Below, piece by piece: positions 5,409-62,120 of a stretch of DNA of 64,000 bases (positions are counted from its first letter, which is position 1; every line of letters begins with the position of its first letter). The notes under the pieces are model-generated. The model had not been told where the DNA came from. It searched no databases and saw only the letters and a list, made by a program, of their open reading frames with translations. The DNA is from Magnetospirillum sp. (lineage in GTDB: Bacteria > Pseudomonadota > Alphaproteobacteria > CACIAM-22H2): contig JAPZUA010000001.1 of assembly GCA_027532905.1 (NCBI GenBank), positions 1,237,950 to 1,301,949 of the forward strand. Direction: 5' to 3'. The position numbers were made by a program, and so were the translations under genes.

Positions 5409-5458
5409 CCGCGCGAATCGGTAGCTTCGCGCGCTTCATTGCATATTGGAGACAGCAG

Positions 5459-5710: not shown

Positions 5711-5711
5711 G

Positions 5712-10034: not shown

Positions 10035-10063
10035 GTTGCGCGATCCCGGCAGGTTCGCGCAAC
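10035..10063 (-). terminator. Hairpin downstream of trpE(G)
   Basis: GTTGCGCGA (10035-10043) and TCGCGCAAC (10055-10063) form a perfect 9-bp stem with an 11-nt loop, starting 24 nt after the trpE(G) stop. No T-run follows on the minus strand, so it may be a weak terminator or an RNA 3'-end stabiliser. The remaining bases up to 9881 should hold the promoter of the oxidoreductase; I could not pick out convincing -35/-10 boxes. Confidence 0.45.
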
Positions 10064-10087
10064 GACGTTTCGTCAGGCGGCCTGCGT

Positions 10088-12262: not shown

Positions 12263-12270
12263 GGCATCCT

Positions 12271-12388
12271 CACCAAGAATGGGCTGCGGCCCCAGCTTGG
12301 TGCCAAGGCGGCGAAACGGTCGGTCGATTACGGGAATCGGAAAGGGGAAATGGGTTGGCTGGCGCTTAGCGCCACCAAGCCTGCCAAC
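12271..12388 (-). promoter_or_regulatory. trp leader RNA secondary-structure region
   Basis: Read on the minus strand, the leader contains hairpin 1: TGGCGC (12369-12374), loop TAA, GCGCCA (12360-12365), extended by GTTGGC (12383-12388) with GCCAAC (12354-12359) across a bulge. It covers the Trp codons and stop of trpL. Three further segments compete: A = GCTTGGTG (12373-12380, within the Trp codons), B = CACCAAGC (12295-12302), C = CTTGGTG (12271-12277). B can pair fully with A or with C. C abuts the GGTGAGGA ribosome site of trpE(G), and the B-C stem is lengthened by TGGG/CCCA inside. No strong T-run follows, so control of translation initiation is at least as likely as transcription termination. 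Confidence 0.6.
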
Positions 12389-12416
12389 GGACGATGCGAA
12401 CCGCGACGCTTTCCAT
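12366..12416 (-). CDS. trpL: trpL leader peptide (16 aa, three Trp codons)
   Basis: On the minus strand, an ATG at 12414-12416 opens a 16-codon frame ending in TAA at 12366-12368 and encoding MESVAVRIVRWQAWWR. Three of the last six residues are Trp, two of them adjacent. It lies about 100 nt upstream of trpE(G) and its last codons form one arm of a GC-rich hairpin, the standard layout of a ribosome-mediated attenuator. No Shine-Dalgarno is visible before the ATG. In Sinorhizobium meliloti trpL is translated from a leaderless transcript, and this could be similar (inference). Three Trp in 16 codons by chance in exactly this place is very unlikely. Confidence 0.87.
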   Translation of the reverse strand: MESVAVRIVRWQAWWR

Positions 12417-12469
12417 AATCGGAACGCTAACAGGCAAGCTGGGGCGGAGTCCAGAACTTCAGGGGTCGG

Positions 12470-12493
12470 CAACTTGGCCCCACCCCAACTTGG
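12470..12493. repeat. Direct repeat in the trpL/epimerase divergent promoter region
   Basis: CAACTTGG occurs twice, at 12470-12477 and 12486-12493, 16 bp apart, between the divergent trp leader and the epimerase gene. The spacing of about one and a half helical turns would suit a dimeric regulator, but no binding family is recognised. Confidence 0.3.
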
Positions 12494-12535
12494 CGCGTGA
12501 TTTTGCCGGCCAAGGCGGCTAAAACGCCGTCCATC

Positions 12536-13510
12536 ATGAGCGTTCTTGTCACCGGGGCTGCCGGATTCATCGGATTTTCCGTCGCGCGCGCGTTGTTGGC
12601 ACGCGGCGAAAGCGTCGTCGGCTTCGACAATTTCGATCCGTACTACGACGTGGCGCTCAAAGAAGCGCGCGCCGCCGAGCTTGCCAAACATGCGGGCTTC
12701 CGCATGGTGCGCGCCGACATTGCGAGCGACGGCGCTTTTGCGGCAGCGCTCGCCGACAAGGCGATCGACCGCGTGGTGCATCTGGCCGCCCAAGCGGGCG
12801 TGCGCTATTCGATCACGAACCCCGAGGTCTATATCCGCACGAACATCGTCGGCCATTTCAACGTCGTCGAAGCGTGCCGGCGGCGCGGCGACATCAAGCA
12901 TCTCGTCTACGCCTCGTCCTCGTCGGTCTATGGCGGCAACACGAAATTGCCCTTCGACGTCGCCGACAAGATCGACCGGCCGGTCTCGCTCTATGCCGCG
13001 ACCAAGGCCGCCAACGAACTCGTCGGCCATTGCTACAGCCATCTCTATGCGTTGCCGGCCACGGGCTTGCGCTTCTTCACGGTCTACGGGCCGTGGGGCC
13101 GGCCCGACATGGCGCTGTGGATCTTCACCAAGGCGATCCTCGCGGGCCAGCCCATTCCGGTCTTCAACAACGGCCAGATGCGCCGCGACTTCACCTATAT
13201 CGACGACATCGTGGCGGGTGTGATCGCCGCCCTCGACCATGTGCCGCCCGCAGGGGCGAGCGCCCCGCACCGCGTCTACAATCTCGGCAACCACAAATCC
13301 GAGCCGCTGCTGCGCTTCGTCGAGCTCATCGAGCGCGCGACGAACCACAAAGCCATTCTCGATCTGCAGCCCTTGCAGGCGGGCGACGTGCCGGAGAGCT
13401 TCGCCGACATCGAAGCCTCGACGCGCGATTTGGGATTCGCCCCGCGCACGGCGATCGACGTCGGCGTGCCGAATTTCGTCTCCTGGTTCCGCAGCTACCA
13501 CGGCATCTGA
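12536..13510 (+). CDS. NAD-dependent sugar epimerase, UDP-glucuronate 4-epimerase-like
   Basis: A 324-residue extended short-chain dehydrogenase. It has the NAD-binding GAAGFIG (7-13), the FDNFDPYYD loop typical of UDP-glucuronate/UDP-galacturonate 4-epimerases, YASSSSVYGG near 125-134 and the catalytic Y153-x3-K157 in YAATKAANE. The TVYGPWGRPDMA motif is also characteristic of UDP-glucuronate epimerases. The likely product is UDP-galacturonate for cell-surface polysaccharide, made in the cytoplasm. The start at ATG 12536 is fixed by the Rossmann motif. It stands alone, divergent from trp and convergent with the hydrolase at 13530; no other polysaccharide gene adjoins it. Confidence 0.9.
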   Translation: MSVLVTGAAGFIGFSVARALLARGESVVGFDNFDPYYDVALKEARAAELAKHAGFRMVRADIASDGAFAAALADKAIDRVVHLAAQAGVRYSITNPEVYIRTNIVGHFNVVEACRRRGDIKHLVYASSSSVYGGNTKLPFDVADKIDRPVSLYAATKAANELVGHCYSHLYALPATGLRFFTVYGPWGRPDMALWIFTKAILAGQPIPVFNNGQMRRDFTYIDDIVAGVIAALDHVPPAGASAPHRVYNLGNHKSEPLLRFVELIERATNHKAILDLQPLQAGDVPESFADIEASTRDLGFAPRTAIDVGVPNFVSWFRSYHGI

Positions 13511-13529
13511 GGCAGCCGCAGGCGCGCGT

Positions 13530-14693
13530 TTACGACCCCGGTTCGCGCGGCGCGTAGCTGCGCAGCAACAGAGCACCCGTACCGCCTTTGCCGTCGGCCC
13601 AGCGCAAAATCGTTTGCCGCGTGCGCTGCTCGTGCTCGAGCGTGACTTTCTGGTGCGGCAATTCCGCGACGACATTGCGCCCATCGAGACGCGCCTGCAC
13701 GCGAAAGGTTTTGTCGAGCTTGTTCGAGCCGCGCGCGCTCATCAGATACACAAGCTCGTAGCCGTCCGCCGCTTTTTCAAGGGCGATGGCGGCGAGGTTG
13801 GGCCCGCTCCAAGCCCCCACCCAAACGCCCTCGTAGAATTTCCACCACTCGCCGGCCGGCAAGGCGGCCGGTTTCAGCGTTGCGGTCTCGGCCATCAAAT
13901 CGGGTGCAGCGGCCAAACCGCCCTGCCCGCAAGCGGCGGCACCCGCCGCGCGCGTGCGCAGCGGATCGAGAAACGCCGCCAAACAGACGGCGTAGATTTG
14001 CGTCATGGCGCTGGAACTCGAACCGCCATGACCGACAAGGATCGTCGAAGCGTCGTCCAAGGGCAGAAACGGCACGTTGCGTTTGGCCAGGATTTCGCGG
14101 GCGCGACGTCCGCGCTCGGGGCTTGCCAAGGCAAATTCGTCGGAAAAGGGCAGAATGGCGGCCGCTCGTTCGAATTTTCCGTCGGCCAGGGACGCATAGA
14201 GATGGTCGGTGCCCGCCGTCTCGGCGGCGACGGTACCGACGAGCGTCGAGGATACGCCTGTCCCCGGCGAGGACGGCACGATCGCATACACCTCGACGCG
14301 ACGCGCGGCTTCGAGCGCGATCGCACCGCCATAGCTTTGGCCCGCCAGGATCACGCGCGCATAGCCTTGCACCTTGGCACGCTGCACTTCTTCGACCGTG
14401 CGTGCGACATGGCGCAAACCGCCCGTGGTCCAGCCGCCGCCTTCCGACAGGCCGTCGCGCTTGATGCGGACGACGTCCCAGCCGGCGGCATGCAGCACGC
14501 GCACATAGGCGGGCGGCGGAGCGCGGGACTGGTCGTTGTTGCCCGAGAGTCCGTGGTTCCAGATGACGATGCCGCGGGCCGTTCCGGGCCCCTTGGGCGG
14601 CAGATCGTCGAAGCCTTGCACGACCTCGTACTGCGCAAAAGCCGGTGCCGCCGCGAGCAGCAATGCCGTCGCCAAACCCAGTATCCCCCGCAT
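13530..14693 (-). CDS. Secreted alpha/beta-hydrolase-fold protein
   Basis: A 387-residue protein with a signal peptide (MRGILGLATALLLAAAPAFA, predicted cut after residue 20). The N-terminal two-thirds look like an alpha/beta hydrolase: WNHGLSGNN oxyanion-type segment near 45-53 and nucleophile elbow GQSYGG (118-123, Ser120). A C-terminal region from about 285 (AGEWWKFYEGVWVGAWSG onwards) looks like a separate beta-rich domain. It should act in the periplasm on an ester or amide; the substrate is unknown. It is the last gene of a minus-strand run beginning with the acyl-CoA synthetase at 17566, so a lipid ester substrate is possible but unproven. Confidence 0.75.
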   Translation of the reverse strand: MRGILGLATALLLAAAPAFAQYEVVQGFDDLPPKGPGTARGIVIWNHGLSGNNDQSRAPPPAYVRVLHAAGWDVVRIKRDGLSEGGGWTTGGLRHVARTVEEVQRAKVQGYARVILAGQSYGGAIALEAARRVEVYAIVPSSPGTGVSSTLVGTVAAETAGTDHLYASLADGKFERAAAILPFSDEFALASPERGRRAREILAKRNVPFLPLDDASTILVGHGGSSSSAMTQIYAVCLAAFLDPLRTRAAGAAACGQGGLAAAPDLMAETATLKPAALPAGEWWKFYEGVWVGAWSGPNLAAIALEKAADGYELVYLMSARGSNKLDKTFRVQARLDGRNVVAELPHQKVTLEHEQRTRQTILRWADGKGGTGALLLRSYAPREPGS

Positions 14694-14720
14694 CGTTCTC
14701 CCCCGTATTCGAAGCCCCGC

Positions 14721-15254
14721 CTACAGCGTCAGCGCGAACTCCAGCGTTTCGGCCGGCTGCCCGCGCGCCGGTTGCGCGCGCAGCAGGCGCCCGGCCCGCC
14801 GCATGCCGAGTTTGCGCGCCACACTTTGCGAGGCAAGATTGTCGGGGTGCGTGCCTGCCGTCAAGCGTTGCAATCCCATGGTGCGCGCGAAATCGACGAT
14901 GCAGGACGCGGCCTCGCTTGCGTAACCCAGCCCCTGGAACGGGCCGCCGACCCACCAGCCCATGTCGGCCTCTTCGCCCGCCCCGTCGAGCCCGAGGCCG
15001 ATGGTGCCGATGAGGCCCGGCGCCTCAAGCCTTTCGAACGCGAAGGTCAGCGTGCGCGCATCGACGATGGCGCGGCGCGCATCGTCGACGAACTTTTCGG
15101 CGTCCGCGCGCGTGTAGGGATGCGGGATGTTGGCGGTCCAGCGCGCCAACTCCCAATCGCCGCACCAGCGCGCCAGGGCCGGCGCGTCGCCGTCTTCAGG
15201 TGCCCGCAGCACCAGGCGCTCGGTATAGAGCTTGAGTTCGAGCAGCTCGTCCAT
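14721..15254 (-). CDS. GNAT N-acetyltransferase (RimJ/RimL type)
   Basis: A 177-residue acetyl-CoA-dependent acetyltransferase. The opening ELKLYTERLVLRAPEDGDAPAL is typical of the RimJ/RimL branch, and WVGGPFQGLGYASEAASCIVDFA carries the acetyl-CoA-binding Q/R-x2-G-x-G/A-type loop. Later TAGTHPDNLASQSVARKLGMR is a hallmark of the C-terminal half. The family acetylates ribosomal-protein N-termini or small amines; nothing here shows which. It sits 15 bp after the BON lipoprotein gene in the same orientation, within the same probable operon. Confidence 0.87.
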   Translation of the reverse strand: MDELLELKLYTERLVLRAPEDGDAPALARWCGDWELARWTANIPHPYTRADAEKFVDDARRAIVDARTLTFAFERLEAPGLIGTIGLGLDGAGEEADMGWWVGGPFQGLGYASEAASCIVDFARTMGLQRLTAGTHPDNLASQSVARKLGMRRAGRLLRAQPARGQPAETLEFALTL

Positions 15255-15269
15255 GCGGGGCCGTTGCGG

Positions 15270-15827
15270 CTAGGGCCGGACCTGCACGTGGGAGACGACG
15301 CGGCGCACATTGTCGGTGCTGCGCGCTTCGGCCATCGCCTTGTCGAGTTCGGCCTGGGTATGCGCGCGGCCGAACAGATAGACCGTGCCGTTGACCGCCC
15401 GGTAGCGGAAATTGACCGAGCGCACGCCGTCGGCGGCGAGCAGCTTCACGCCGAGCTTCTGTTCGATCACGAGATCGTTGGCCGTGGCCCCGACCCCGCC
15501 CTCGCTCGTGACTTGGATCTCGTTGACGATCTGGCCCACGCCCTGGACCCCGCGCGCGATCGCCTCGGCGCGCGCTTTGGCGGGGGCGGTTGCGACCGCT
15601 CCGGTCAGCATCATGCGCGTGAGATACACATCCGTCGACACGTCGCGGAACAAGGCACCCGATTCGCCCGCGACCGCGCGGTTGAAGGCGATCAGGATGC
15701 GGTTGTCTTCGGTGATCTGCGAGGTGGTGCGGTCTTCGCTCGCAAGCCGTGCGACGGTCGAAACGCCGGGCGGGGCACCGCAGGCAGCGAGTGCCAAGGC
15801 CGCAAACACAATTAGTGCGTATTTCAT
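15270..15827 (-). CDS. BON-domain lipoprotein
   Basis: A 185-residue protein with a lipobox (LALAAC, Cys16), so probably anchored in a membrane on the periplasmic side. Two BON domains follow, roughly 34-105 and 110-183, each with the alternating beta/alpha pattern and a VNEIQV/VVSHVQV-type closing strand. BON lipoproteins such as DolP (YraP) guard outer-membrane integrity. The ATG overlaps the stop of the acyl-CoA synthetase (ATGA), so the two are coupled; a link between lipid handling and envelope maintenance is plausible. Confidence 0.88.
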   Translation of the reverse strand: MKYALIVFAALALAACGAPPGVSTVARLASEDRTTSQITEDNRILIAFNRAVAGESGALFRDVSTDVYLTRMMLTGAVATAPAKARAEAIARGVQGVGQIVNEIQVTSEGGVGATANDLVIEQKLGVKLLAADGVRSVNFRYRAVNGTVYLFGRAHTQAELDKAMAEARSTDNVRRVVSHVQVRP

Positions 15828-48127: not shown

Positions 48128-50758
<2,631 letters not shown>

Positions 50759-50781
50759 AAAGAAAACGGGGAGAGACCATC

Positions 50782-51735
50782 ATGGCCAAGGCCTTTGCAT
50801 CGACCGCCGATCTCGAAGACAAGCGCGAAAGCTTCGTAAAGCTCGGCCCCAACGCCTATTGCCTGACGGCCGAGGGCGATCCCAATTCGGGCGTGGTCGT
50901 CGGCGACGATTGCTGCATGGTGATCGACGCGCGCGCCACGCCTGAGATGGCGCAAGACCTCGTGCGCTACATCCGCAAAGTCACCGACAAGCCGGTCAAA
51001 TACGTGGTGCTCACGCACTACCACGCGGTGCGCGTGCTGGGTGCGTCGGGTTACGGTGCCGAACACGTGATCGCCTCGCGCCCGACCTTGGAGATGATCA
51101 AAGAACGCGGCAAGCAGGATTGGAAATCGGAGGTGGGCCGCTTCCCGCGCCTGTTCCGCAATGCGGACAGCGTGCCGGGCCTCACATGGCCCACAATCGT
51201 GTTCGACAAGGCGCTCACGCTTTATCTCGGCAAACTCGAAGTGCAGATCCTGCAGCCCGGCGGCGGCGGGCATACGCGCGGCGACAGCGTGGTGTGGTTG
51301 CCCAAGGACCGCATCCTGTTTGCGGGCGATCTCGTCGAAGAGGGTGCGACACCCTATTGCGGCGATGCGCAATTGGCCGAGTGGCCCGCCACGCTCGACG
51401 CGCTTTTGGCGCTGAAGCCGCAGAAGCTCGTACCCGGCCGCGGGGCCGCACTCACGAACGCGGCCGCGTCGAAGAAAGCCATCGCGGGCACGCGCCTGTT
51501 CGTGCAGGAGCTTCTGGCGCACGCCAAGAAGGGCGTGAAGGCCGGAAAAACGCTGAACGCGGTCTATGCCGCGACCTACAAGGCGATGGCGCCCAAATAC
51601 GGCAGATGGGTGATCTTCGACCATTGCATGCCGTTCTGCGTGAGCCGCGCCTACGACGAGGCCAAGGGCCTTGCCCATCCGCGCATCTGGACGGCCCAGC
51701 GCGACAAAGAGATGTGGCGCGCCCTGCAGGGCTGA
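50782..51735 (+). CDS. Metallo-beta-lactamase-fold protein with atypical metal motif
   Basis: A 317-residue protein with the MBL fold outline: GVVVGDDCCMVIDARAT, VVLTHYHAVRVLGASGYG, GGGGHTRGDSVVWLP and ILFAGDLVEEG. The usual first metal motif HxHxDH reads H79-Y-H81-A-V-R84, so the Asp and His of the second zinc site are missing while the later His (GHTRGD) and Asp (GDLVEEG) remain. It may bind one metal or have changed chemistry. ATG 50782 has a GGGGAG site upstream; 23 bp follow queF, so it may be read with the que operon. Function unknown. Confidence 0.78.
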   Translation: MAKAFASTADLEDKRESFVKLGPNAYCLTAEGDPNSGVVVGDDCCMVIDARATPEMAQDLVRYIRKVTDKPVKYVVLTHYHAVRVLGASGYGAEHVIASRPTLEMIKERGKQDWKSEVGRFPRLFRNADSVPGLTWPTIVFDKALTLYLGKLEVQILQPGGGGHTRGDSVVWLPKDRILFAGDLVEEGATPYCGDAQLAEWPATLDALLALKPQKLVPGRGAALTNAAASKKAIAGTRLFVQELLAHAKKGVKAGKTLNAVYAATYKAMAPKYGRWVIFDHCMPFCVSRAYDEAKGLAHPRIWTAQRDKEMWRALQG

Positions 51736-51748
51736 AGCGGCCGTACCC

Positions 51749-52639
51749 GTGGAAGACCTGCTCGAACGCCTCGCCGTGCTGCGCGACGATCTCGCACCTG
51801 CCGAAAAGCGGGTCGCCGAGCGGACACTCGACCATCCGGAATCGATCGTGCGCATGCCGCTCAAGACGTTTGCGGCGGCAGCCAAGGTCAGCGAGCCCAC
51901 GGTGTTGCGCGTCGTGCGCGCCCTCGGCCTGTCGGGCTATCCCGAATTCAAACTGCGCGTGGCGCAAAGCCTCGTGCGCGGCCAGCCCTATCTGCATCGC
52001 GAGATCGCCCCCGGCGACGGGCCCGACGTGGTCGCCGCCAAAATCTTCGATTCGACCGTGTTTGCGGTCAATTCGCTGCGCGCCACGCTCGATGCGGCGG
52101 CCGTGCGCCGCGCCATCGACCTCTTGCACAAGGCCAGCCGCATCGAATGCTACGGCAACGGGCCGGCCAGCATCCTCGCCTTCGATGCGCAGCAGAAGTT
52201 CATGCGCTACGGCATTCCGAGCGTGGCCTATCTCGAGGGCCATCTGCAGACGATGGGGGCGGCCTCGCTCGCGCAAGGGGCCGTGGCGCTGTGTTTTTCG
52301 CACACGGGTGCCGTCAGGGACATCGTGCGCACGGCCGAAGCGGCGGCGGCCGCCGGCGCCAAAGTGATCGCGATCACGCGCGCGGGCAGTCCGCTGGCCG
52401 CCGCAGCCCACGTCGTCGTGCATGTGGCCGCACTCGAAAACACCGAACTCACGGCGCCGATGGTGAGCCGCGTCGCGCAAAGCGTCGTGATCGACATTCT
52501 CGTGACCGGCGTCGGCGTTGCCCTCGGCGCACCTGTCAACGAAAGGCTGCGGCGCATCAAAGACAGCGTGGCCGAGACGCGAATCCCGCCGCGCCGGGCC
52601 GCTACGCGCAAGCGGCGCCATATTCGCAAAACTACATAG
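51749..52639 (+). CDS. RpiR/MurR-family regulator (HTH plus SIS domain)
   Basis: A 296-residue regulator. The N-terminal HTH (MPLKTFAAAAKVSEPTVLRVVRALGLSGYPEFK, about 31-63) is followed by a SIS sugar-phosphate-binding domain (IECYGNGPASILAFDAQQKF, ALCFSHTGAVRDIV). These regulators sense phosphorylated sugars or sugar amines. GTG 51749 matches the family start. It leads a run of same-strand genes through 60118 (a mandelate racemase-family enzyme, transporter, SDR), making it the probable controller of that sugar-acid module. Confidence 0.9.
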   Translation: MEDLLERLAVLRDDLAPAEKRVAERTLDHPESIVRMPLKTFAAAAKVSEPTVLRVVRALGLSGYPEFKLRVAQSLVRGQPYLHREIAPGDGPDVVAAKIFDSTVFAVNSLRATLDAAAVRRAIDLLHKASRIECYGNGPASILAFDAQQKFMRYGIPSVAYLEGHLQTMGAASLAQGAVALCFSHTGAVRDIVRTAEAAAAAGAKVIAITRAGSPLAAAAHVVVHVAALENTELTAPMVSRVAQSVVIDILVTGVGVALGAPVNERLRRIKDSVAETRIPPRRAATRKRRHIRKTT

Positions 52640-52745
52640 AAACTTCCAAAAACCTCCCGCATACTTGCGCCACTACAAAAGAAAAAAAGCGGGAGGATCG
52701 GCCATCGTTGCCCCCAAAGCCCCATCTGCGGGCGCCATTGCGCGC

Positions 52746-53846
52746 GTGATCGCGCATCCGCTCAAATGCACGCTGCCAAAGACGCAGACCACGGGTGCGC
52801 GCGCCTTTCCCGAAATCGAACTCGTGATCGTCGAGATCGTCACGGCAGATGGTCTCGTCGGCTGGGGCGAGTGTCTCGGCCGCACCGGTTCGGTCGCCTA
52901 CGCCGCCATCGTCGAAAAACTCCTCGCGCCGCTTCTGATCGGCCGCGACAGTGCGGACATCGCGACCCTGCACGGCGAGATGCGCCGCGTTTTGTCGGGC
53001 CGCTCGGGCGGCATGCTGCTCGAAACGATCGCAGGCGTCGATATCGCCTTGTGGGACATCGCCGGCAAGCGCATGGGCGTGCCGGTGCATCGGCTGCTGG
53101 GCGGCCTATCGCGCCCGCGCGTGGCGGCTTACGCCTCCTCGATCAACTGGACCGACGATGCTGGGGCCGCCGAAGAAACGAATGCCGCCCTTGCCCTCGG
53201 CTTCCGCACGATCAAGGTCAAGATCGGCAAACCCGTGGCGCGGGCCAGAGCACGCATCGCCCAACTAGCCGCGTTGGTCGGCGACAAGGCGCAGCTCTTC
53301 GTCGACGCCAACTGGGCCTACACGCCCGAGGAAGCCGCCGAAGTCGCGCAATGCCTGCACGACCACGGCTATGCCTGGTTCGAAGAGCCGATCGTGCCCG
53401 AAGACATCGACGGTTATCGGCGCTTGCGCGCGCTCGGGCTCTGTCCGCTCGCGGCCGGCGAGAGCGATTTCACCGTTTGGCAAGCGCGCGAACTGATCGC
53501 CGAGCGGCTCGTCGATCTGATCCAGCCGGACGTCGCACGCTCGGGCGGCATTACCGAGACCCGCCGCATCGCCGAACTCGCTTTCGCCCACCATGTCGGC
53601 TACGCGCCGCATGTCGGCTGGTCGGGGGCGATCTGCGTCGCGGCGAGCCTGCATCTGGCGAGTGCGATGCCCGCCTTCCGCATTTTCGAGTGCATGGTGT
53701 TCGACAATCCGCTGCGCGACGCGCTGACCACGACGCCCATCGGCGACCGCCACTCGCTCGTCGACGGCACGCTCGAGGTGCCGCAAGGCCCCGGCCTCGG
53801 CGTCGAGGTGGATCGCAAAGCACTGGCCAAGTTCCGCACCCATTGA
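52746..53846 (+). CDS. Mandelate racemase / muconate lactonizing-family enzyme (enolase superfamily)
   Basis: About 366 residues of the mandelate racemase branch of the enolase superfamily, probably an acid-sugar dehydratase or epimerase. Metal ligands are D187 (FVDANW), E213 (FEEP) and E239 (AGESDF); bases are K157/K159 (KVKIGK) and H289 (APHVGW). The start is uncertain: GTG 52746 has no ribosome site, whereas a GGGAGG at 52690-52696 sits 7 nt before an in-frame ATC at 52704, which would add 14 residues. There is no ATG. It follows the RpiR regulator by 106 bp. The substrate is unknown. Confidence 0.87.
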   Translation: MIAHPLKCTLPKTQTTGARAFPEIELVIVEIVTADGLVGWGECLGRTGSVAYAAIVEKLLAPLLIGRDSADIATLHGEMRRVLSGRSGGMLLETIAGVDIALWDIAGKRMGVPVHRLLGGLSRPRVAAYASSINWTDDAGAAEETNAALALGFRTIKVKIGKPVARARARIAQLAALVGDKAQLFVDANWAYTPEEAAEVAQCLHDHGYAWFEEPIVPEDIDGYRRLRALGLCPLAAGESDFTVWQARELIAERLVDLIQPDVARSGGITETRRIAELAFAHHVGYAPHVGWSGAICVAASLHLASAMPAFRIFECMVFDNPLRDALTTTPIGDRHSLVDGTLEVPQGPGLGVEVDRKALAKFRTH

Positions 53847-53869
53847 ACCGCCACACAAGGAGTTTGCCC

Positions 53870-55159
53870 ATGGCACTCGCTCCCTCGACCTTCGGCCGTC
53901 GCGCGTTTCTGGCAGGCAGTGCGGCGACTTTTGCGGCCTTGCCGAGGTCGGCACGCGCCCAAGCGCGCACGCTGAACGCGTTCGGCCATCGCGTCCACCA
54001 AACGGTCGCAACCACAGGCCCCGGCGGCGATGCCACCGCCGCATGGCGCGCGCAATCGGGCTACGACATTTCCTGGGTGACGTTGGGCGACGTCAACGCG
54101 ATTCAGGAACGTCTGCTGCGCGAGGCGAGCCTCGGCGAAACGACGCTCGATTTGACGTACCTGCTGAACGGCCGCGCGGTGCCGCGAAATCTGCGGCTTT
54201 TCGAACCGCTCGACGCGTTTCAGCGCGAAGCGCCGATCGAGGATTTCGACGACATTTCCGCAGGCCTCGTCGCACCGATGCGCGTCGAAGGTGCACTCCA
54301 CGCCATCCCCATGCGCCACGCCACCAACGGCTTGGTTTGGAACGAAGCCATCCTCGAAGAGCGCGGCATCAAAGCCCCGCCCGCGACGTTCGAGGAATTC
54401 GTCGACGTCGCCAAGCGCCTGACCTACACGCGCGCCGACGGCACGCAAGTGGTGGGCTTGGCCTTCACGGCCGTGTTTGCGTCCAACTTCCTGTCGATCG
54501 CGCGCGCCTTCGACGGCGATTTCATGACCGGCGACATGCGCGTCGTCGCCGACCAGCCGTCGATGGTCAAGCCGCTCGAGGCGTTGGCCGATCTCTTCAA
54601 GGCCGGCGCCTTGCCGCGCAATTTTGCGGCCGTGAACAACGAAGAGATCACCACCTGGATGCAGCAAGGCCGGGCTGCGATGACGATCAATCCCTATGCG
54701 CGGCTGGTCAGCTACAACGATCCGGCGCAATCGCGCTATCCCGGCAAGATCAAGGGCGGCGCCATGCCGATGACCGCTGCACTTGTCGGCCGTACGCCAT
54801 ACGCCTCGACGACCGAATACTGGGCCTTCGCCATCCCGCGTAACTCGAAGAACAAGCGCGCCGCTTGGGATCTTGCGCGCGCATTGTCGGCACGTGCGGG
54901 AACCCTGGCTATGGTGCGCAACGGCAACGGCCCGGTGCGCGTTTCCACCTATTCCGAGTCGAGCTTCGCCGCCGCCTTGCCGCACGCGGCGGCCGAAGCC
55001 TTGGCGCTCAAGACCGCGCGCATCCATTTGCCCGCATTCGACAACCAGGCGCGCGCCCACGACGTGTTCGTCGAAGAATGCCAAGCGGCCGTGCTCGGTA
55101 TGAAGCCCGCCGAGCGCGCCATGGCGGACGCCACACGGCGCGTGCGCGCGATGCTGTGA
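53870..55159 (+). CDS. Sugar-type ABC transporter solute-binding protein (paralog 1)
   Basis: A 429-residue family 1 extracellular solute-binding protein. The N-terminus STFGRRAFLAGSAATF is a Tat-type signal, cut near ARAQA. The chain has the usual two-lobe receptor pattern: LFEPLDAFQREAPIEDF, NEAILEERGIKAPPATFEEFVDVAKRL, YWAFAIPRNSKNKRAAWDLA. AAGGAG precedes the ATG by 8 nt. It resembles the receptor at 58832 along its whole length, so the operon carries two duplicated receptors. Operon position suggests an oligosaccharide or acid-sugar ligand, but it is not proven. Confidence 0.9.
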   Translation: MALAPSTFGRRAFLAGSAATFAALPRSARAQARTLNAFGHRVHQTVATTGPGGDATAAWRAQSGYDISWVTLGDVNAIQERLLREASLGETTLDLTYLLNGRAVPRNLRLFEPLDAFQREAPIEDFDDISAGLVAPMRVEGALHAIPMRHATNGLVWNEAILEERGIKAPPATFEEFVDVAKRLTYTRADGTQVVGLAFTAVFASNFLSIARAFDGDFMTGDMRVVADQPSMVKPLEALADLFKAGALPRNFAAVNNEEITTWMQQGRAAMTINPYARLVSYNDPAQSRYPGKIKGGAMPMTAALVGRTPYASTTEYWAFAIPRNSKNKRAAWDLARALSARAGTLAMVRNGNGPVRVSTYSESSFAAALPHAAAEALALKTARIHLPAFDNQARAHDVFVEECQAAVLGMKPAERAMADATRRVRAML

Positions 55160-55902
55160 CGGTGCTCCCAGCGATGCGCGGACGCAACGCTCTGGTTACG
55201 GGCTCGACGCGCGGCATCGGCCGCGCGATCGCCGTTGCGTTTGCGCAAGAAGGTGCCGCCGTGTTTTTGCACGGGCTGGAGCGCGACAGCGCGCTGGAAG
55301 TGACTTTGGGCGCGCAATGCGCGGGCTTCGACGGGACCGATCTGGCGCTGCCCGACGGTGCGGACCGTCTCTTCACGGCGGCGGCAGCGGCGATGGGCTC
55401 GGTCGATATTCTGGTGCTGTGCGCGTCGGCCGAAATCCGCGAGATGTGGGACCGCGTGACGCCGGCGGCGGAAGCAACGCAGCTTGCCGTGAATTTTTCG
55501 GCCAGCGTGCGCTTGCTGTGCCGCGCGGTTCCGGCCATGTCGGCGCGCGGCTGGGGACGCGTGCTGGCGATCGGCTCGATTCAAGAAACGCTGCCCAACG
55601 CCGATTGCCTCGTGTATGTCGCAACCAAGGCCGCGCAGACGGCGATGATGCGCACGCTGGCGCGGCACGCAAGTGCCGACGGCGTCACCTTCAACACGAT
55701 CAAACCGGGGGCGATCGAAACCGACCGCAATGCCGCACGGCTTGCCGATCCGGCGTTTCGCGCAAGCGTCGTCGCGCGCATCCCGGCCGGCCGCTTGGGC
55801 CAGGCCGACGATTGCGCCGGCATCGCCGTTGCCCTGTGCGCGGACGGCTGCGGCTACGTGAACGGGGCCGAGATCGCCGTTGCGGGCGGGCTGGCGCTAT
55901 GA
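55156..55902 (+). CDS. Short-chain dehydrogenase (SDR) of the sugar-transport operon
   Basis: A 248-residue classical SDR: cofactor loop TGSTRGIG (15-22), NFSAS segment, catalytic S141, Y154 and K158 in YVATKAAQ. Start is taken as GTG 55156, which forms a GTGA overlap with the receptor stop; GTG 55162 and ATG 55174 are alternatives. It lies between the receptor and permease genes, so it probably oxidises or reduces the imported sugar or sugar acid, ahead of or after the mandelate racemase-family enzyme. Confidence 0.9.
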   Translation: MTVLPAMRGRNALVTGSTRGIGRAIAVAFAQEGAAVFLHGLERDSALEVTLGAQCAGFDGTDLALPDGADRLFTAAAAAMGSVDILVLCASAEIREMWDRVTPAAEATQLAVNFSASVRLLCRAVPAMSARGWGRVLAIGSIQETLPNADCLVYVATKAAQTAMMRTLARHASADGVTFNTIKPGAIETDRNAARLADPAFRASVVARIPAGRLGQADDCAGIAVALCADGCGYVNGAEIAVAGGLAL

Positions 55903-56792
55903 GGGGGTCGTTTACAGGGCCCGCGCGCGTGGCGCCGATCCATCTGGCGATGGTCGCCCCCGTCCAGGCCTTGCTGATCGGCGTCGTGTTCCTGCCCTCG
56001 CTCTACGTGTTCTGGCTGTCGTTCAACGAGTCGAGCTTCGGCAAAGCGCCCACCTATGTCGGGCTCAAGAACTACATCGAGGTTCTCGGCGATCCCTATT
56101 TCTGGCGCGCCTTCGGCAACACCGCGATCGTCATCAACATCGTCGTCTATCTGGAATTAGCGCTGGGCTTGGCGATCGCCTTGCTGTTTGCGGGCGGCGT
56201 GCCGATGCGCAAAGTTCTGATCTCGATCGTGCTCGCGCCCTACGCGATCTCCGAGGTCGCCGCAGTCGTGATGTGGCGTTTCATGCTCGATCCTTCGGTC
56301 GGCATGGTGAGCCAGACCCTTGCAGCCTTCGGCCTGCCCACGATCGAGTGGGCCGTGATCCCGTCCCACGGTCTGGCGGCCGTGTGCGCGCTGTCGGTTT
56401 GGCTGCATCTGCCGTTTACGTTCCTGATCCTCTACGCCGCTCGCTTGGCGATACCGGCCGATCTCTACGAAGCCGCGCGCATCGACGGGGCGACGGCCTG
56501 GCAGCAATTCCGCTACGTCACCTTGCCCACGCTCGTGCCTGCGATTCTGGTGGCGGTGCTGTTCCGCTACATCTTCGCGTTCCGCATGTTCTCGGAAGTG
56601 TGGCTCATCACCGGCGGCGGACCGGCGCGTTCGACCGAAGTGCTGGCCGTCTATCTCTATCAGGAGGCGTTCCGCTACAACGAGTTCGGCTTGGCGGCTG
56701 CGACCGGCTGGCTGATGGTCGTGGCGTCGGTCGTGCTGGCGACACCCTATCTCTACGTCGTCTACAAACGCACATTGGCCAACGATGCGTAG
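55899..56792 (+). CDS. Sugar-type ABC permease (MalF-like)
   Basis: A 297-residue inner-membrane permease with about six helices and the coupling-loop motif YEAARIDGATAWQQFRYVTLPTLVP (near 193-217), the EAA signature of carbohydrate-uptake CUT1 permeases. Start ATG 55899 overlaps the SDR stop by ATGA; its end overlaps the next permease by 8 bp. It pairs with the MalG-like protein. No ATPase gene lies in the operon, so a shared MsmX/UgpC-type ATPase elsewhere is expected (known for CUT1 systems; here inferred). Confidence 0.92.
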   Translation: MRGSFTGPARVAPIHLAMVAPVQALLIGVVFLPSLYVFWLSFNESSFGKAPTYVGLKNYIEVLGDPYFWRAFGNTAIVINIVVYLELALGLAIALLFAGGVPMRKVLISIVLAPYAISEVAAVVMWRFMLDPSVGMVSQTLAAFGLPTIEWAVIPSHGLAAVCALSVWLHLPFTFLILYAARLAIPADLYEAARIDGATAWQQFRYVTLPTLVPAILVAVLFRYIFAFRMFSEVWLITGGGPARSTEVLAVYLYQEAFRYNEFGLAAATGWLMVVASVVLATPYLYVVYKRTLANDA

Positions 56793-57615
56793 GCCCTGGC
56801 CCTTGCGCATCCTGCGCGGCATTGCCGTGGCGGCCGTCGTTTTCTGGTCGGCCTTCCCGATCGTGCTGGTGACGCTGTCGTCGCTGAAACCGTCGCGCGA
56901 GATCTTCGTGTTTCCGCCGGTCTGGCTGTTTTCGCCGACCTTCGAAAACTACACGGCCCTGTGGCGGCGCTGGCCCGATTTTTTCGCCAACCTCACCAAC
57001 AGTTTCATCGTCACGATCGGCGCCACGCTGGTCGCCGTGCTGGCAAGTGCCATGGCCGCCTATGTCCATTCGCGCAAACGCACGCGCTGGCTCGCCGGTG
57101 CGGCGTTTTTCATGATCTTCGTGCGCCTCATCCCGCCGATCGTGATCACGCTGCCGCTGTTCCCGCTCGTGAATCTCCTGCGCCTCAACGACACGCATTT
57201 TGTGCTGATCCTGCTCTACGCGACGTTTTTCGTGTCGATGGGCACGATGATCCTGAAATCCTTCGTCGACCAGATCCCGCGCGAATTGGACGAAGCGGCG
57301 ATGATCGACGGGGCGGGCGTGTGGGCGGTTTTCCGGCGCGTGATCGTGCCCCTGTCGACGCAAGGCATGGTCGCCGTCGCAGTGTTCGTCATCGTGTTCG
57401 CGTGGAACGAGTTTCTGTTCGCGTTCATCTTCACGACCACGACCGCCAAGACAGCACCGCTCGTGCTGTCGGAGATGACCGGGGCGGTCGACGGCGTGGA
57501 ATGGGGCGTTCTGTTCGCGGCAACCACCGTGCAGCTCCTGCCGATACTCGTCTTCGTCGTTCTAGCCCAGAAATACCTCATCGCCGGCCTTACTGCCGGC
57601 GCTACGAAAGGATAA
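56785..57615 (+). CDS. Sugar-type ABC permease (MalG-like)
   Basis: A 276-residue permease with about six helices. The cytoplasmic coupling motif is DEAAMIDGAGVWAVFRRVIVPLSTQG (near 171-196), and NEFLFAFIFTTTTAKTAPL is the MalG-type late loop. ATG 56785 is inside the preceding gene. The stop is followed within 3 bp by the next gene. It is the second membrane half of the CUT1 importer. Confidence 0.92.
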   Translation: MRRPWPLRILRGIAVAAVVFWSAFPIVLVTLSSLKPSREIFVFPPVWLFSPTFENYTALWRRWPDFFANLTNSFIVTIGATLVAVLASAMAAYVHSRKRTRWLAGAAFFMIFVRLIPPIVITLPLFPLVNLLRLNDTHFVLILLYATFFVSMGTMILKSFVDQIPRELDEAAMIDGAGVWAVFRRVIVPLSTQGMVAVAVFVIVFAWNEFLFAFIFTTTTAKTAPLVLSEMTGAVDGVEWGVLFAATTVQLLPILVFVVLAQKYLIAGLTAGATKG

Positions 57616-57618
57616 AAA

Positions 57619-58491
57619 ATGGACATCGCGCGCGCGTTGCGGCTGGCGAATCCGAAGCTTTCGCGCTTCGATCCGATGTCGCGCATCATCGCCTTCGACG
57701 ATTTCGACGACGGTTTCTGCGGCTGGACGCAGCTCGTGGGCAACTACGAGCACACGCTCGATTCGATGCTGCCGGGCTATGCCCAGCACACCCAGCCGCA
57801 GCTCTCCAACCTCGCCAATTGGGATTCCGGCACGCACGGATCTTTCGACGGCAACTACGCGCTAAAGATCCAGACGCGGCCCAAGAAGGGCGCGCAGAAC
57901 GTAGCGCTGAAGCGCCTCACCTTCCGCGAACCCGGCCCCATCCGCCTCGAATTCTATTTCACCTTCAAGCCCGAGGCGAACGAGCTGCGCCTGTCGGAGA
58001 CCGACGTGCGCTCGGTCGGCTTTCTCTACGATCTGCAGACCGGGTTCGAGAAAGGCGGGACGCGCGTGATGCCGCATGTGCGCTTCCTCAACGCCAGCGA
58101 CGGCACGCATCTGCAGAAATGGCAGACGAAATCGCGCACGACCGCGATCAAGCCGCTCGGCACCGAAGGCAAGACCGTCACGCACTACCATCTCGCACCG
58201 ACCGACTGGGAAGACCTGCCGGGCGGCGAGCAGAAGCTCTGCTACAACGAGATTCCGACCAAAGTGAACTGGCACTATGTACGCTACGATTTCGATCTGC
58301 GCACGATGCGGGCGATCTCGCTGCGCTGCAACGACCGCGAATGGGACATGTCGGGCGTGGCCCCTATCGTGATGCCCGCCATGCGCAATCTCTGGTGCAT
58401 GCTCAACATCTGCTTCTTTGCCGAAGCCGACACCGACAAACGCACGCTCTTCTACGTCGACTCGGTCTGCCTTTCGGGAGAATTCGCATGA
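57619..58491 (+). CDS. Uncharacterised jelly-roll-like protein (DUF6772-type, tentative)
   Basis: A 290-residue protein with no signal peptide or membrane segment, so predicted cytoplasmic. The alternating hydrophobic/aromatic pattern is that of a concanavalin-like beta sandwich: IIAFDDFDDGFCGWTQLVG, GSFDGNYALKIQTRPK, GPIRLEFYFTFK, WHYVRYDFDLRTMRAISLRC, RTLFYVDSVCLSG. I believe it is the family Pfam lists as DUF6772 but could not verify this. AAAGGA precedes the ATG by 7 nt. It sits among transporter genes with the MR-type enzyme. A sugar-binding or sugar-processing role is a guess; catalytic residues cannot be named. Confidence 0.6.
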   Translation: MDIARALRLANPKLSRFDPMSRIIAFDDFDDGFCGWTQLVGNYEHTLDSMLPGYAQHTQPQLSNLANWDSGTHGSFDGNYALKIQTRPKKGAQNVALKRLTFREPGPIRLEFYFTFKPEANELRLSETDVRSVGFLYDLQTGFEKGGTRVMPHVRFLNASDGTHLQKWQTKSRTTAIKPLGTEGKTVTHYHLAPTDWEDLPGGEQKLCYNEIPTKVNWHYVRYDFDLRTMRAISLRCNDREWDMSGVAPIVMPAMRNLWCMLNICFFAEADTDKRTLFYVDSVCLSGEFA

Positions 58492-58826
58492 TGCGCCAGT
58501 GTGTGACCGCCGTCGTTTCGCGCAACGAAACCTGGACGGGAGCTGCGGCCAGCGAACCCTACGAATGCGGCTGGGCGGGCGAAGCAATCGTGTGGCTGCG
58601 GTGCCTCGGCGCCAAAGGCAAGCTTGGCGCCGCGCGCGCGCGCGTGCAGATCTCGCCCGACGGCATGCGCTGGGTCGACGAAGGCACAAAGCTCAAATTT
58701 CCGGCCAAAGACGGGGCACTCACCCATGTGCGGGTCGCCCATTTCGGAAATTTTTTGCGCGTCGTGGCCGATCTGCCCAAGGGCACGTCGGCTAAGATTC
58801 TCTTCACCCTGACCCTGAAGGAGTGA
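58488..58826 (+). CDS. Uncharacterised small beta-rich protein
   Basis: A 112-residue protein of unknown function, soluble, with no signal peptide. It begins MMRQCVTAVVSRNETWTGA and shows strand-like segments (AIVWLRCLGAKGKLG, RARVQISPDGMRWVDEGT, HVRVAHFGNFLRVVADLP) that suggest a beta-sandwich. Its ATG overlaps the stop of the 290-residue gene by 4 bp and a receptor gene follows 5 bp later, so it is embedded in the operon and the two unknowns may work together. No family recognised. Confidence 0.6.
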   Translation: MMRQCVTAVVSRNETWTGAAASEPYECGWAGEAIVWLRCLGAKGKLGAARARVQISPDGMRWVDEGTKLKFPAKDGALTHVRVAHFGNFLRVVADLPKGTSAKILFTLTLKE

Positions 58827-58831
58827 TCGCC

Positions 58832-60118
58832 ATGAAACTCGACGGAAAACTCGGACGCCGCGCGGTTCTCGCCGGCGCGGCCCTCACGCTTGCAGCTCCC
58901 GCCTTGCGGGCCCAGACGCAAGCGCGCGTCAACATCTTCGCCCACCGCGTGCACCGCACCGTCGCCACGGGTGCGCAAGGCGGCGACATCACCGAAGCGT
59001 GGGCACGCGAAAACAACGCCGCGGTCGAATGGGTCACGTTCGACACCGGCCCGCTGCAGGACCGGCTGCTGCGCGAAGCCTCGCTCGCCGACAGCACGGT
59101 CGATATCGGCTTCATCCTGAACACGCAGGCAACGCCGCGCATCGCGACCCTGTTCGAGCCGCTCGACGATCTGATGCGCCAAGCGCCCATCGAAGAACTC
59201 GGCGACGTGTTTCCCGGCATGCTCGACGGGCTCAAGGTCGGCGGGCGCCTCTACGGCCTGCCGTTCCGGCATGCCTCGTCGGGGATGCATTACAACGAGA
59301 CTTTCTTCGAGGAGCGCGGCATCTCCGGCCCGCCGCGCACCATCGAGGACCTTGCCGAATTCGCGCGCCGCACGACGTGGTCGCGCAACGGCCAGCCCGT
59401 GGTCGGCCTCGTGCTGCCGGGCGTGACCTATCCCAACGTCATCGACATCGCGCGCGCCTGGGACGGCGAGTTCATCACGCCGGACATGCGCGTGGTCGCC
59501 AGCGAAAAGCCGATGGTCAACGCGATCACGCTGCTACGCGACCTGTTCGTGGCGGGCGCTTTCCCGCGCAGCTTCACCGCCATCAACACCGAAGACGTGA
59601 ATCTGTGGATGCAGACCGGGCGTGCGGCGATGGTCGTGAACTCGATGGGCCGCAACGCGATCTACAACGATCCGGCGCGTTCGCAGTTTCCGGGCAAGAT
59701 CAAGACGACGACGATCCCGATTTCGCGCGAATTCTCGAACAAGTTCGAGGTCGCACCGGCCAAGGTCGAGTTCTGGGGCATGGCGATCCCCAAAAACGCC
59801 AAGAACAAAGAGCGCGCCTGGAGCCTGATGCGCACGATGTTGTCGAAGGATTCGACGCTGCGCGCGGCCTTGAACGGCAACGGGCCCGTGCGCAACTCGA
59901 CCTACGACGACGCGCGCGTGCGTGCCCAACTGCCGTTCGCCGACGACGAACGCAAGGTGCTGCGCGTGGCGCGGGTCCCCATGCCCGCCTTCGACAACGC
60001 GCAGCGTGCGGCCGACTTCTTCAAGGAAGAAGCCGAAGCGGCCGTGCTCGGCATGAAGACGCCGCAGGCGGCGATGGACGATCTTACGCGGCGCGTGCGC
60101 CCGCTGCTGCAGAGCTAA
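58832..60118 (+). CDS. Sugar-type ABC transporter solute-binding protein (paralog 2)
   Basis: A 428-residue receptor with a Tat-type start (LGRRAVLAGAALTLAAP, cut near RAQ). Shared with paralog 1 are HRVHRTVAT, RLLREASLAD, LFEPLDDLMRQAPIEE, YNDPARSQFPGKIK, NGNGPVRNSTYDDARV and an identical AAVLGMK near the end. ATG 58832 is preferred to GTG 58823 because AAGGAG lies 8 nt upstream. It is the last gene of the operon, and its stop overlaps the convergent M14 gene by 3 bp. The duplication suggests two ligands for one channel, or redundancy. Confidence 0.9.
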   Translation: MKLDGKLGRRAVLAGAALTLAAPALRAQTQARVNIFAHRVHRTVATGAQGGDITEAWARENNAAVEWVTFDTGPLQDRLLREASLADSTVDIGFILNTQATPRIATLFEPLDDLMRQAPIEELGDVFPGMLDGLKVGGRLYGLPFRHASSGMHYNETFFEERGISGPPRTIEDLAEFARRTTWSRNGQPVVGLVLPGVTYPNVIDIARAWDGEFITPDMRVVASEKPMVNAITLLRDLFVAGAFPRSFTAINTEDVNLWMQTGRAAMVVNSMGRNAIYNDPARSQFPGKIKTTTIPISREFSNKFEVAPAKVEFWGMAIPKNAKNKERAWSLMRTMLSKDSTLRAALNGNGPVRNSTYDDARVRAQLPFADDERKVLRVARVPMPAFDNAQRAADFFKEEAEAAVLGMKTPQAAMDDLTRRVRPLLQS

Positions 60119-61116
60119 AGCAGCTCGGTATGTTCGACCGGCCGGCCGAGATGGGCGAGCACGTCGCCCATCTCGGCCGGTGCTGGTGCGCGGCGGCACA
60201 GCAAAATGCCGTCGGCCGAAAAGCGCACGATTTCGGGTGCGCGGTCCGGCCGCTCGAGATCGTGCAGACGGCCGGCGATGTCGCCCGCGCGCACGGTGTC
60301 GCCCAAGGTCGCGGCCGGCTCGAACAGGCCGCGGCCGGGCGCGCGCACGAAGTGCTTCGGTTCGACCGACAGGAACCGCACCGATGCCGGCGACGGCTTC
60401 GGCCCCACGAGACCGGCATAGCCCAAGAAACGTGAAATGCCGGCGCGTGCGATCGCGAGCGTCTTGGGCGTGAGTGCGCCCGCCCCGCCAAGCTCCGACG
60501 AAATCGCGATCTTGCCGGCATTGTGCGCAGCCGCCAGGAACGTGCCCTGGCTCTGCGGCTTCAGCACCACGCCCGCGTCGGAGGCGCCGAACGCCGCTAG
60601 CGCATCGAGTGTTTGCTTGCGCTGTACGGCTTCGCTCGGCAGGCGCGACCATGCGCACGGCAGATAGTCGAGCGTGCGCCCGCCCGAATGCAGATCGAGC
60701 ACGTAGTCGGCATGCGGCAGCAGCAGCCGCATCAGACCTTCGGCAATCTGCGACGTCGGTGGGCCGTCGCCGCGGCCGGGGAACACGCGCGCAAGATTGC
60801 CGCCGTCGATGGGCGATGTGCGCCGGCCGACGACCGCCGCCGGCAGATTGGCCGAAGGCACGAGGATGAGGCGCCCGGCGAGCGATGCCGGATCGAGGTC
60901 CCGCGCAAGATCGCCGAGCACGACTTGGCCTTCGTATTCGTCGCCGTGCACGCCCGCGACCGCAAGCACGGTCGGGCCGGGGCAGCCATTCAGCACGATC
61001 ACGGGTACGACGATCTGCCCATAGGCCGATTCGTCGTGCGACCAGGGCAGCCGCATGGCGCCGAAGGTCCGCCCCGGCCGGTCGAGCGGAATGTCGAGTT
61101 CGGCGGGTCCGCTCAC
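60115..61116 (-). CDS. Succinylglutamate desuccinylase/aspartoacylase-family hydrolase (M14)
   Basis: A 333-residue zinc amidohydrolase. Zinc ligands are H57 and E60 (VAGVHGDEYEG) and H143 (DLHSGG); SELGGAGALTPKTL carries the catalytic Glu region. Family members deacylate N-succinylglutamate, N-acetylaspartate, ectoine precursors and similar N-acyl amino acids. The start is GTG 61116, overlapping the PLP gene stop by 4 bp; no strong ribosome site. It is coupled to a PLP enzyme, so the pair may process an acylated amino acid. Confidence 0.88.
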   Translation of the reverse strand: MSGPAELDIPLDRPGRTFGAMRLPWSHDESAYGQIVVPVIVLNGCPGPTVLAVAGVHGDEYEGQVVLGDLARDLDPASLAGRLILVPSANLPAAVVGRRTSPIDGGNLARVFPGRGDGPPTSQIAEGLMRLLLPHADYVLDLHSGGRTLDYLPCAWSRLPSEAVQRKQTLDALAAFGASDAGVVLKPQSQGTFLAAAHNAGKIAISSELGGAGALTPKTLAIARAGISRFLGYAGLVGPKPSPASVRFLSVEPKHFVRAPGRGLFEPAATLGDTVRAGDIAGRLHDLERPDRAPEIVRFSADGILLCRRAPAPAEMGDVLAHLGRPVEHTELL

Positions 61117-62120
61117 GATGCCTCTCCGAAAGATGCCGCATTGACGAACAGGCCCGGTGCCCCGCCCGAATGCAAAAACAAAGGTGCGGCGGTGCGCGGC
61201 ATATGCCCGGCTTCGCATGCCGCGATCAACCCCGCCAACGCCTTGCCCGTATAGACCGGATCGAGCACCCAGCCTTGGCTGCGACCGGCCAAGCGCACGG
61301 CGGCGATCGCTTCGGGCGAAGGTTGGCCATAGCCCGGCCCGACCGCTTCGACCAGATCGAAGTCGGTTTCGGCAAGCGCCACGTCCAATCCCAGCATTGC
61401 TGCACCCTGGGCGGCTGCCGCGACGATCCAGGGGCGCAATCGCGAAACAGGCTGCTGCACCGACACGCCGAACAGACGCGGGCCGCGACCGCGCCATTTG
61501 AAGCCAAGGGCGAGCCCCGCCAAGGTCAGCGCGGAGCCGCACGCCACGACCATATGCGTGGGCGCGATCGCAGCTGCGTCGATTTGCGCCAGCACCTCGT
61601 CCGCCCCCGCAACCCAGCCCGCGACCCCCAACGAAGCCGAATCGCCGGTCAGTTGCACGATCGTGGGTCGCTTGCCGGCGGCGCGCGCGCGTTCGGCCAT
61701 CGCCTCGAGTTCGACGCGGATCGCGGGATCCCACGGATCGGTTGCGGCCGTGAACGCGACCTTGGCGCCGAAGATATGGTCGAGCAGCAGATTGCCTTCG
61801 CGTTTTGCCGCAGCCGACCCGCGCAGCAGCAATTCGCAGCCGAGGCCGAAGCTTGCGGCGGAACCTGCAAGCGCGCGGCAGAAATTCGACTGCACGCCCG
61901 CCGTCGCGATCACCGTGTCAGCGCCCTCGGCGCAGGCCGCCCCCAGGATCAGCGACAATTGGCGCAGCTTGTTGCCGCCGAAGGCCGTGCCGCTCAGATC
62001 TTCGCGCTTGACCCACAGAGCGGCCACGCCGAGAGATGCCGCCAAACGCGGTGCGGTCTCGATCGGTGTCGGCAGTCGCGCCAGATCCAGACGCGGCAAA
62101 GCGGCGAAGTCGTCGGGCAT
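61113..62120 (-). CDS. PLP-dependent D-cysteine desulfhydrase / ACC deaminase-family enzyme
   Basis: A 335-residue fold-type II PLP enzyme. K51 (GGNKLRQL) is the Schiff-base lysine and QSN (77-79) binds the substrate carboxylate; these positions match 1-aminocyclopropane-1-carboxylate deaminase. Relatives split D-cysteine, ACC or other D-amino acids to 2-oxo acid and ammonia. GCYG/GPGYGQP near 284 binds the substrate. It begins just 2 nt after a strong hairpin (62123-62145), with no ribosome site visible. It overlaps and is coupled with the M14 hydrolase. Confidence 0.86.
   Translation of the reverse strand: MPDDFAALPRLDLARLPTPIETAPRLAASLGVAALWVKREDLSGTAFGGNKLRQLSLILGAACAEGADTVIATAGVQSNFCRALAGSAASFGLGCELLLRGSAAAKREGNLLLDHIFGAKVAFTAATDPWDPAIRVELEAMAERARAAGKRPTIVQLTGDSASLGVAGWVAGADEVLAQIDAAAIAPTHMVVACGSALTLAGLALGFKWRGRGPRLFGVSVQQPVSRLRPWIVAAAAQGAAMLGLDVALAETDFDLVEAVGPGYGQPSPEAIAAVRLAGRSQGWVLDPVYTGKALAGLIAACEAGHMPRTAAPLFLHSGGAPGLFVNAASFGEAS

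Follow-up and report, generated by a model that had tools for sequence, protein, structure and literature searches.

In Bacillus subtilis, the gene for YesU belongs to an operon for sugar use that also contains CUT1 genes. Among the GH16 glycoside hydrolases, an ExDxxE catalytic motif is conserved, and the C-glycoside deglycosidase has a small subunit that is β-rich. YesU has been described as a ConA-like jelly roll that was matched to the lectin VIP36, and that was shown to bind fucosylated glycans (PMC6120924). Relatives of the 290-residue protein considered here are labelled 'DUF6772 family protein' by NCBI, and a search of the open-licence literature retrieved no paper naming DUF6772, PF20562, or DUF6385.

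The window, i.e., the whole stretch of 64,000 nucleotides of Magnetospirillum sp. DNA that was analysed, contains an operon of the CUT1 importer type according to Pfam, with two BPD_transp_1 permeases and SBP_bac_1/8 receptors (Table 1). The original prediction described reading frames of 290 and 112 residues that overlap by 4 bp between a permease and a receptor gene, near an enzyme of the mandelate racemase family (MR/MLE, for mandelate racemase/muconate lactonizing) and an SDR. The ORF list and Pfam confirm this arrangement: the frames share the bases ATGA, and lie between permease B and solute-binding protein 2, downstream of the MR/MLE and SDR genes. We refer to the two products as DUF6772 and P2. 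Both are real genes, since frame and sequence are kept by relatives in 37 loci (apart from P2 at L035 and L037, where the locus is truncated on its 3′ side), and since four plasmid records carry a CDS annotation for each (seven records were found and five opened, one of these without annotation).

Table 1. Genes of the operon in the window (positions are those of the window)
Feature	Position	Strand	Remarks
Regulator gene, putative RpiR-type	51671..52639	+	ORF; start approximate; RpiR-type label presumed from reading
MR/MLE-type enzyme	about 52743..53846	+	PF13378 209.6 bits, PF02746 74.8 bits; start approximate
Solute-binding protein 1	53870..55159	+	PF13416 / PF01547; start inferred by reading
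SDR oxidoreductase	55174..55902	+	PF13561 128.7 bits
CUT1-type permease A	55899..56792	+	PF00528 48.1 bits
CUT1-type permease B	56785..57615	+	PF00528 54.1 bits
DUF6772 protein, 290 aa	57619..58491	+	PF20562; predicted ConA-like jelly roll; ATG start
P2, 112 aa	58488..58826	+	Partner of DUF6772; predicted eight-stranded β-sandwich; ATG start
Solute-binding protein 2	58832..60118	+	PF01547 68.6 bits; ORF opens at 58823, likely start 58832

The operon combines one permease pair with two solute-binding proteins, and two such proteins are kept in many loci. No ATPase gene was found among the importer operon genes (window positions 50000–60118; ORF list and Pfam). Elsewhere, the genome encodes at least three full-length proteins related to CUT1-type ATPases (51–56% identity), which does not imply that they have a role in this importer. 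For the MR/MLE enzyme, the best PDB match is 4ggb, which we take to be a galactarolactone cycloisomerase, and the best NCBIfam model is galactonate dehydratase at 205 bits, below its cut-off of 311. Convergent to the operon, on the minus strand at 60115–62120, are genes of the AstE/AspA type and the PALP type (PLP). Relatives of these occur at 7 and 8 of the 37 loci, respectively (Pfam on the L001 copies), and the two genes may therefore share the route of the operon.

DUF6772 and P2 form an obligate pair, which is new here. The 37 loci were obtained from 84 stretches in a scan of genome contigs that picks up only close relatives. The 37 genomes behind them contain 44 matches to DUF6772 and, in 36 genomes, 40 matches to P2; when coordinates were compared, P2 was located just downstream of DUF6772 in all 40 cases. 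The four DUF6772 matches that lack P2 (G761, G771, G774, and G780) are each ended on the 3′ side by the contig end. Four genomes (G750, G761, G775, and G776) carry a second set with a divergent P2 (60–69 bits); three of the divergent second DUF6772 copies can be aligned, with 37–40% identity to that of the window, and the fourth is fragmented. The distance from the DUF6772 stop to the nearest possible P2 start is −4 to +14 bp in 50/50 loci, with overlap in 35; for this count the nearest start was chosen, and the loci include four that duplicate others (L039–L042) as well as the window (L038). The pair was also found in the actinomycete Nonomuraea, and in further genomes from the class of a Spirochaetota MAG, twice in G789 and once in G850. 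In two closely related copies from the latter two genomes (L070 and L071), the order is reversed, with P2 first and the genes still adjoining. Another match from this class (G795) is a 32-residue piece that contains a stop, and no P2 was found beside the cut DUF6772 copy in G885. Overall, DUF6772 is sparsely distributed: among 398 genomes sampled across the phylum, 3 have a match, as have 3 among 385 sampled across the class (the genome of the window included in both), and 5 of 148 genomes from the class of the Spirochaetota MAG (the MAG and the 32-residue piece included). Adjacency thus survives duplication, change of transporter, and reversal of gene order, which is strong evidence for joint function. 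P2, the obligate partner, has so far been unnamed, and appears as "hypothetical protein" in the annotated plasmid records.

By sequence, the 290-residue protein is a clear full-length member of DUF6772, a named family without assigned function (PF20562, 425.1 bits, E value 1.6e-127, cut-off 27, model positions 2–283 of 284). The AlphaFold2 model, computed from 30 sequences, is rated good (pLDDT 86.5, pTM 0.89), and the fold that it predicts for the protein is the ConA-like lectin/glucanase fold, a two-sheet jelly roll. Foldseek matched the model to two legume lectins with an E value of 2.7e-6, and β-glucanase and GH16 chains are also among its matches, with TM-scores that are low (0.28–0.40 on the query, among the matches listed). 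With VIA-align, the best match is ERGIC-53 (PDB code 4ygb; Z 14.6, rmsd 3.0 over 174 residues), and many lectins fall within one Z unit of it; 782 of the 998 chains compared score Z 5 or more. The ExDxxE motif of GH16 has no invariant copy in the 30-sequence alignment of DUF6772 (A1). The nearest segment is E127-T-D129-V-R-S132, where neither E127 nor D129 is invariant. Candidates for a known enzyme by sequence were rejected, there being no credible PDB match (best E values 0.11 and 0.11; with profiles, 0.018 and 0.3), and no NCBIfam model matched DUF6772 or P2 at an E value of 0.1 or less. For a comparison with the polysaccharide lyase family PF14099, matches were obtained in 7 of 80 genomes, two of them above the cut-off, which was too small a number to build a profile.

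The AlphaFold2 model of P2, from 33 sequences, is rated very good (pLDDT 94.7), and predicts a small eight-stranded β-sandwich. Its fold matches are YomS (PDB code 6i5o; Z 11.1, rmsd 2.2 over 97 residues), XepA (PDB code 6i56; Z 11.0), and a phage capsid protein (Z 10.6). Against DUF6385 (PF19912), P2 of the window scores 22.3 bits, under the cut-off of 26.8, and is not counted as a member; its relative in L034 reaches 26.5 bits against the same cut-off, and all 33 P2 proteins match DUF6385 at an E value of 1 or less, the best at 6.2e-6. The shared folds show no function for either protein.

To judge by eye, DUF6772 and P2 lack an evident signal sequence, and neither looks secreted. The best 15-residue hydropathy mean in the first 45 residues is at most 0.99 for DUF6772 (n = 30) and 1.42 for P2 (n = 33), compared with 2.37 and 2.47 for the permeases, 1.07 and 1.95 for the receptors, and 1.87 for the MR/MLE enzyme, a crude check that separates poorly, as is seen from the receptors and the MR/MLE enzyme. 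The guesses of a jelly roll for the larger protein and a β-rich fold for the smaller are thus borne out by the predicted models and their fold matches, and the expectation that both proteins lack a signal peptide agrees with these admittedly crude observations.

DUF6772 is more conserved than most of its operon partners at the level of sequence. Its relatives are closer to the protein of the window than are those of the MR/MLE enzyme (22/22 loci), the SDR (14/14), P2 (31/31), and receptor 1 (21/21), and also closer than those of receptor 2 in 18 of 21 loci, permease A in 24 of 27, and permease B in 26 of 28. In this comparison, both proteins were aligned over 80% of the query, the best match per locus was used, the close kin L001–L003 were left out, as was the GntR regulator, whose row was based on a query from L006, and for receptors and SDRs the best match may be a paralogue of the true one. 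Across ten divergent DUF6772 members, 39 of 290 positions are invariant, of which 14 are charged (R22, D69, K83, R99, E111, K117, E119, R149, R155, K215, R222, D226, D243, and R275); N158, N210, W218, Y220, and N263 are likewise invariant. E111 and K117 should face the same side, since they alternate with Y113 and T115 on the predicted strand 107–118. P2 keeps P24, E26, W29, A30, W62, and R91 in a ten-sequence alignment, and its conservation is modest. The alignments are of chosen sequences (A1, n = 30; A2, n = 33; A7 and A8, n = 10 each). Conservation of this kind is commoner in enzymes than in lectins, though it is no proof.

The original prediction asked whether homologues always travel with CUT1 permeases. 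They do in 32 of the 37 loci; at four of the others (L028, L029, L033, and L037) the contig ends close to the gene on one side, and at the fifth, L034, no CUT1 permease match was found within about 10 kb on both sides. An MR/MLE gene is present in 26 of 37 loci, although in one of them a contig edge leaves just 99 bp of it; it was not seen in the other 11, several of which are cut. An SDR with at least 41% identity to that of the window occurs in 17 of 37. These and the following statements on gene context rest on the subset of neighbour genes that was scanned.

Within clade a of a tree of 41 rows, where transporter labels were assigned by hand and several long branches are of unsure place, a clade of seven rows (support 100/100) has exchanged its transporter. 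Its permeases are only 28–36% identical to those of the window in the five members measured, and the receptor is a different one; for a sixth member (L062) the evidence comes from annotation, and the contig of L028 ends before the permeases are reached. This clade has kept the pair, the SDR, and a GntR regulator, as well as, mostly, the MR/MLE gene. A Rhizobium plasmid cluster encodes UgpC, two permeases, a receptor, an SMP-30 lactonase, a KR/SDR-type dehydrogenase, FadR, an MR/MLE enzyme, DUF6772, and P2, and at L047 (7956–10153) a tandem of two MR/MLE genes directly precedes the pair, followed by an SMP-30 lactonase gene. The set of clade b consists of GntR, receptor, pair, permeases, aldo-keto reductase, and amidohydrolase, which presumably resembles L-fucose-type oxidative routes.

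Other loci depart further from the window. L034 (Algimonas, 3404–15511) contains genes for a sulfatase, a polysaccharide lyase, an epimerase-family dehydrogenase, a DHDPS-family enzyme, and an aldehyde dehydrogenase, with a putative TonB receptor gene, identified by reading, near the pair; the locus looks like one for breakdown of a sulfated uronate-containing glycan. The Nonomuraea locus (L058) has an MFS transporter, two β-lactamase-family proteins, and a LacI regulator. At L069, GH32 and Gfo/Idh genes lie upstream on the same strand as the pair, no CUT1 match was found among the called genes, and putative oligopeptide-type ABC genes, again from reading, are some 4–8 kb off. In L071, an apiosidase gene precedes the pair on its own strand, and CUT1 permease genes lie at a distance on the opposite one. 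In L070 (1322–9294), apiosidase, RuBisCO-like, BKACE, SBD_N/NBD_C kinase, and proline racemase-family genes are near the pair, a set that is reminiscent of apiose/isoapionate routes. The common denominator is carbohydrate use, neither one transporter nor one pathway.

The pair accordingly works with more than one importer, given the exchanged permeases, the MFS transporter of L058, the putative TonB-type receptor of L034, and the GH32 locus L069, where no CUT1 match was found. The view that the two proteins are tied to the transporter itself is not supported, and they are better seen as a module of cytoplasmic carbohydrate catabolism that consists of two obligately paired proteins and is found with several importers. 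The prediction was to be abandoned if either protein fell clearly into a known enzyme family with an unrelated role, or if homologues never co-occurred with such transporters; no known enzyme family was assigned, and the homologues mostly do co-occur with CUT1 transporters.

We propose, at an even chance, that DUF6772 and P2 constitute a cytoplasmic two-protein carbohydrate-processing complex that is probably catalytic. The suggestion of a functional unit is strengthened by the obligate pairing, which makes a physical complex likely, if still inferred, and catalysis is on balance the more probable of its possible roles. As products of overlapping genes, the two proteins would be parts of one complex, in which the jelly roll of DUF6772 would provide a carbohydrate site lined by invariant charged residues, placed on its concave face, and the β-sandwich of P2 would complete or stabilise DUF6772. 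A sugar, sugar acid, or glycoside would be taken up by whichever importer the species uses (CUT1 in the window) and then be acted on by the complex, which would most likely be an enzyme of the route to which the oxidoreductase, lactonase, and MR/MLE steps of the neighbouring genes belong. Of the original options of binding, presenting, or processing the imported sugar, conservation favours processing. In favour of the proposal we count the pairing, gene coupling, predicted folds, catabolic context, and conservation. Against it stand the lack of a homologue with known function and of a sequence match to a solved enzyme, the fold matches that are mostly to lectins and have low Foldseek TM-scores, the fact that conserved charges can serve binding or folding, the 11 loci where MR/MLE was not seen, the modest conservation of P2, and the glycosidase genes already present in L069–L071. 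The pathways encoded nearby also vary from clade to clade, so that no one step stands out as lacking.

A bolder form of this proposal, to which we give somewhat less than even weight, is that DUF6772–P2 represents a carbohydrate-active enzyme of a new class, cytoplasmic, made of two subunits, and built on a ConA-like scaffold. Its active site would be formed by jelly-roll invariants, with E111, K117, R155, N158, N210, K215, and N263 as candidates, and finished by the P2 sandwich through the P24, E26, and W29 stretch. The reaction might be cleavage of a glycoside or C–O bond, or a lactone or keto-acid step, in several sugar routes and at least two phyla.

The legume and ERGIC-53-type lectins that are the best fold matches suggest instead a non-catalytic, lectin-like complex in the cytoplasm, which would bind the sugar or sugar acid after import and serve the neighbouring enzymes or the regulator as a carrier, buffer, or sensor. 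YesU, as ConA-like, VIP36-matched binder of fucosylated glycans (PMC6120924), is a precedent for this. DUF6772 is, however, better conserved than the adjoining metabolic enzymes and has 14 invariant charged residues, and an obligate second subunit would hardly be needed by a simple binder, so that we consider this explanation rather unlikely. Still less probable, in our estimate, is a narrower version of the catalytic proposal, where the pair would supply a glycosidase or lyase activity otherwise missing inside the cell, and would cleave an imported glycoside ahead of the oxidative steps. Oligosaccharides are frequent cargo of CUT1 importers, GH16-type enzymes are found among the fold matches, and no glycosidase family was seen among the subset of clade-a neighbours that was scanned or in the four annotated plasmid regions. 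However, the GH16 motif is absent from DUF6772, and GH32 (L069), apiosidase (L070/L071), or polysaccharide lyase (L034) is already present where the pair occurs elsewhere. The position of the pair next to the permease genes, in the window and in many loci, would also fit a transporter accessory that stabilises or gates the transporter, or receives the ligand from it on the inner side. This we regard as highly improbable, and it was set aside, since the pair is retained where the transporter is exchanged within clade a or is of a different kind, as with the MFS transporter of L058, and where no CUT1 match was found (L034, and the called genes of L069).

With an obligate partner and a firmly catabolic setting, this domain of unknown function becomes a testable two-protein unit. 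If it is catalytic, sugar metabolism would gain an intracellular enzyme of lectin shape that requires a small subunit; if it only binds, it would be a lectin complex that is conserved and, for the cytoplasm, unusual. Either outcome bears on the role of lectin-like folds inside cells.

With respect to known systems, P2 shares its predicted fold with YomS and XepA, but these are prophage proteins, and sequence identity to YomS is 5%. The C-glycoside deglycosidase is, like the proposed complex, a heteromeric sugar-processing enzyme with a small subunit, and the CGDB model (PF19906) has 112 positions, as P2 has 112 residues. The large subunit of that enzyme has another fold than DUF6772, none of the 33 P2 proteins matched CGDB at an E value of 1 or less, and searches of 80 genomes and 14 controls yielded no CGDB sequence, a result that does not show absence. 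ERGIC-53, the legume lectins, and GH16 enzymes share the predicted ConA-like fold with DUF6772, which differs from such lectins and glucanases in having no evident signal peptide, no significant sequence similarity, and no GH16 motif, and in the presence of a second subunit. For YesU we know of no P2-like partner and no enzyme activity. A ConA-like jelly roll is nevertheless common to YesU and DUF6772, and the likeness so far seen between the two is one of fold rather than of sequence.
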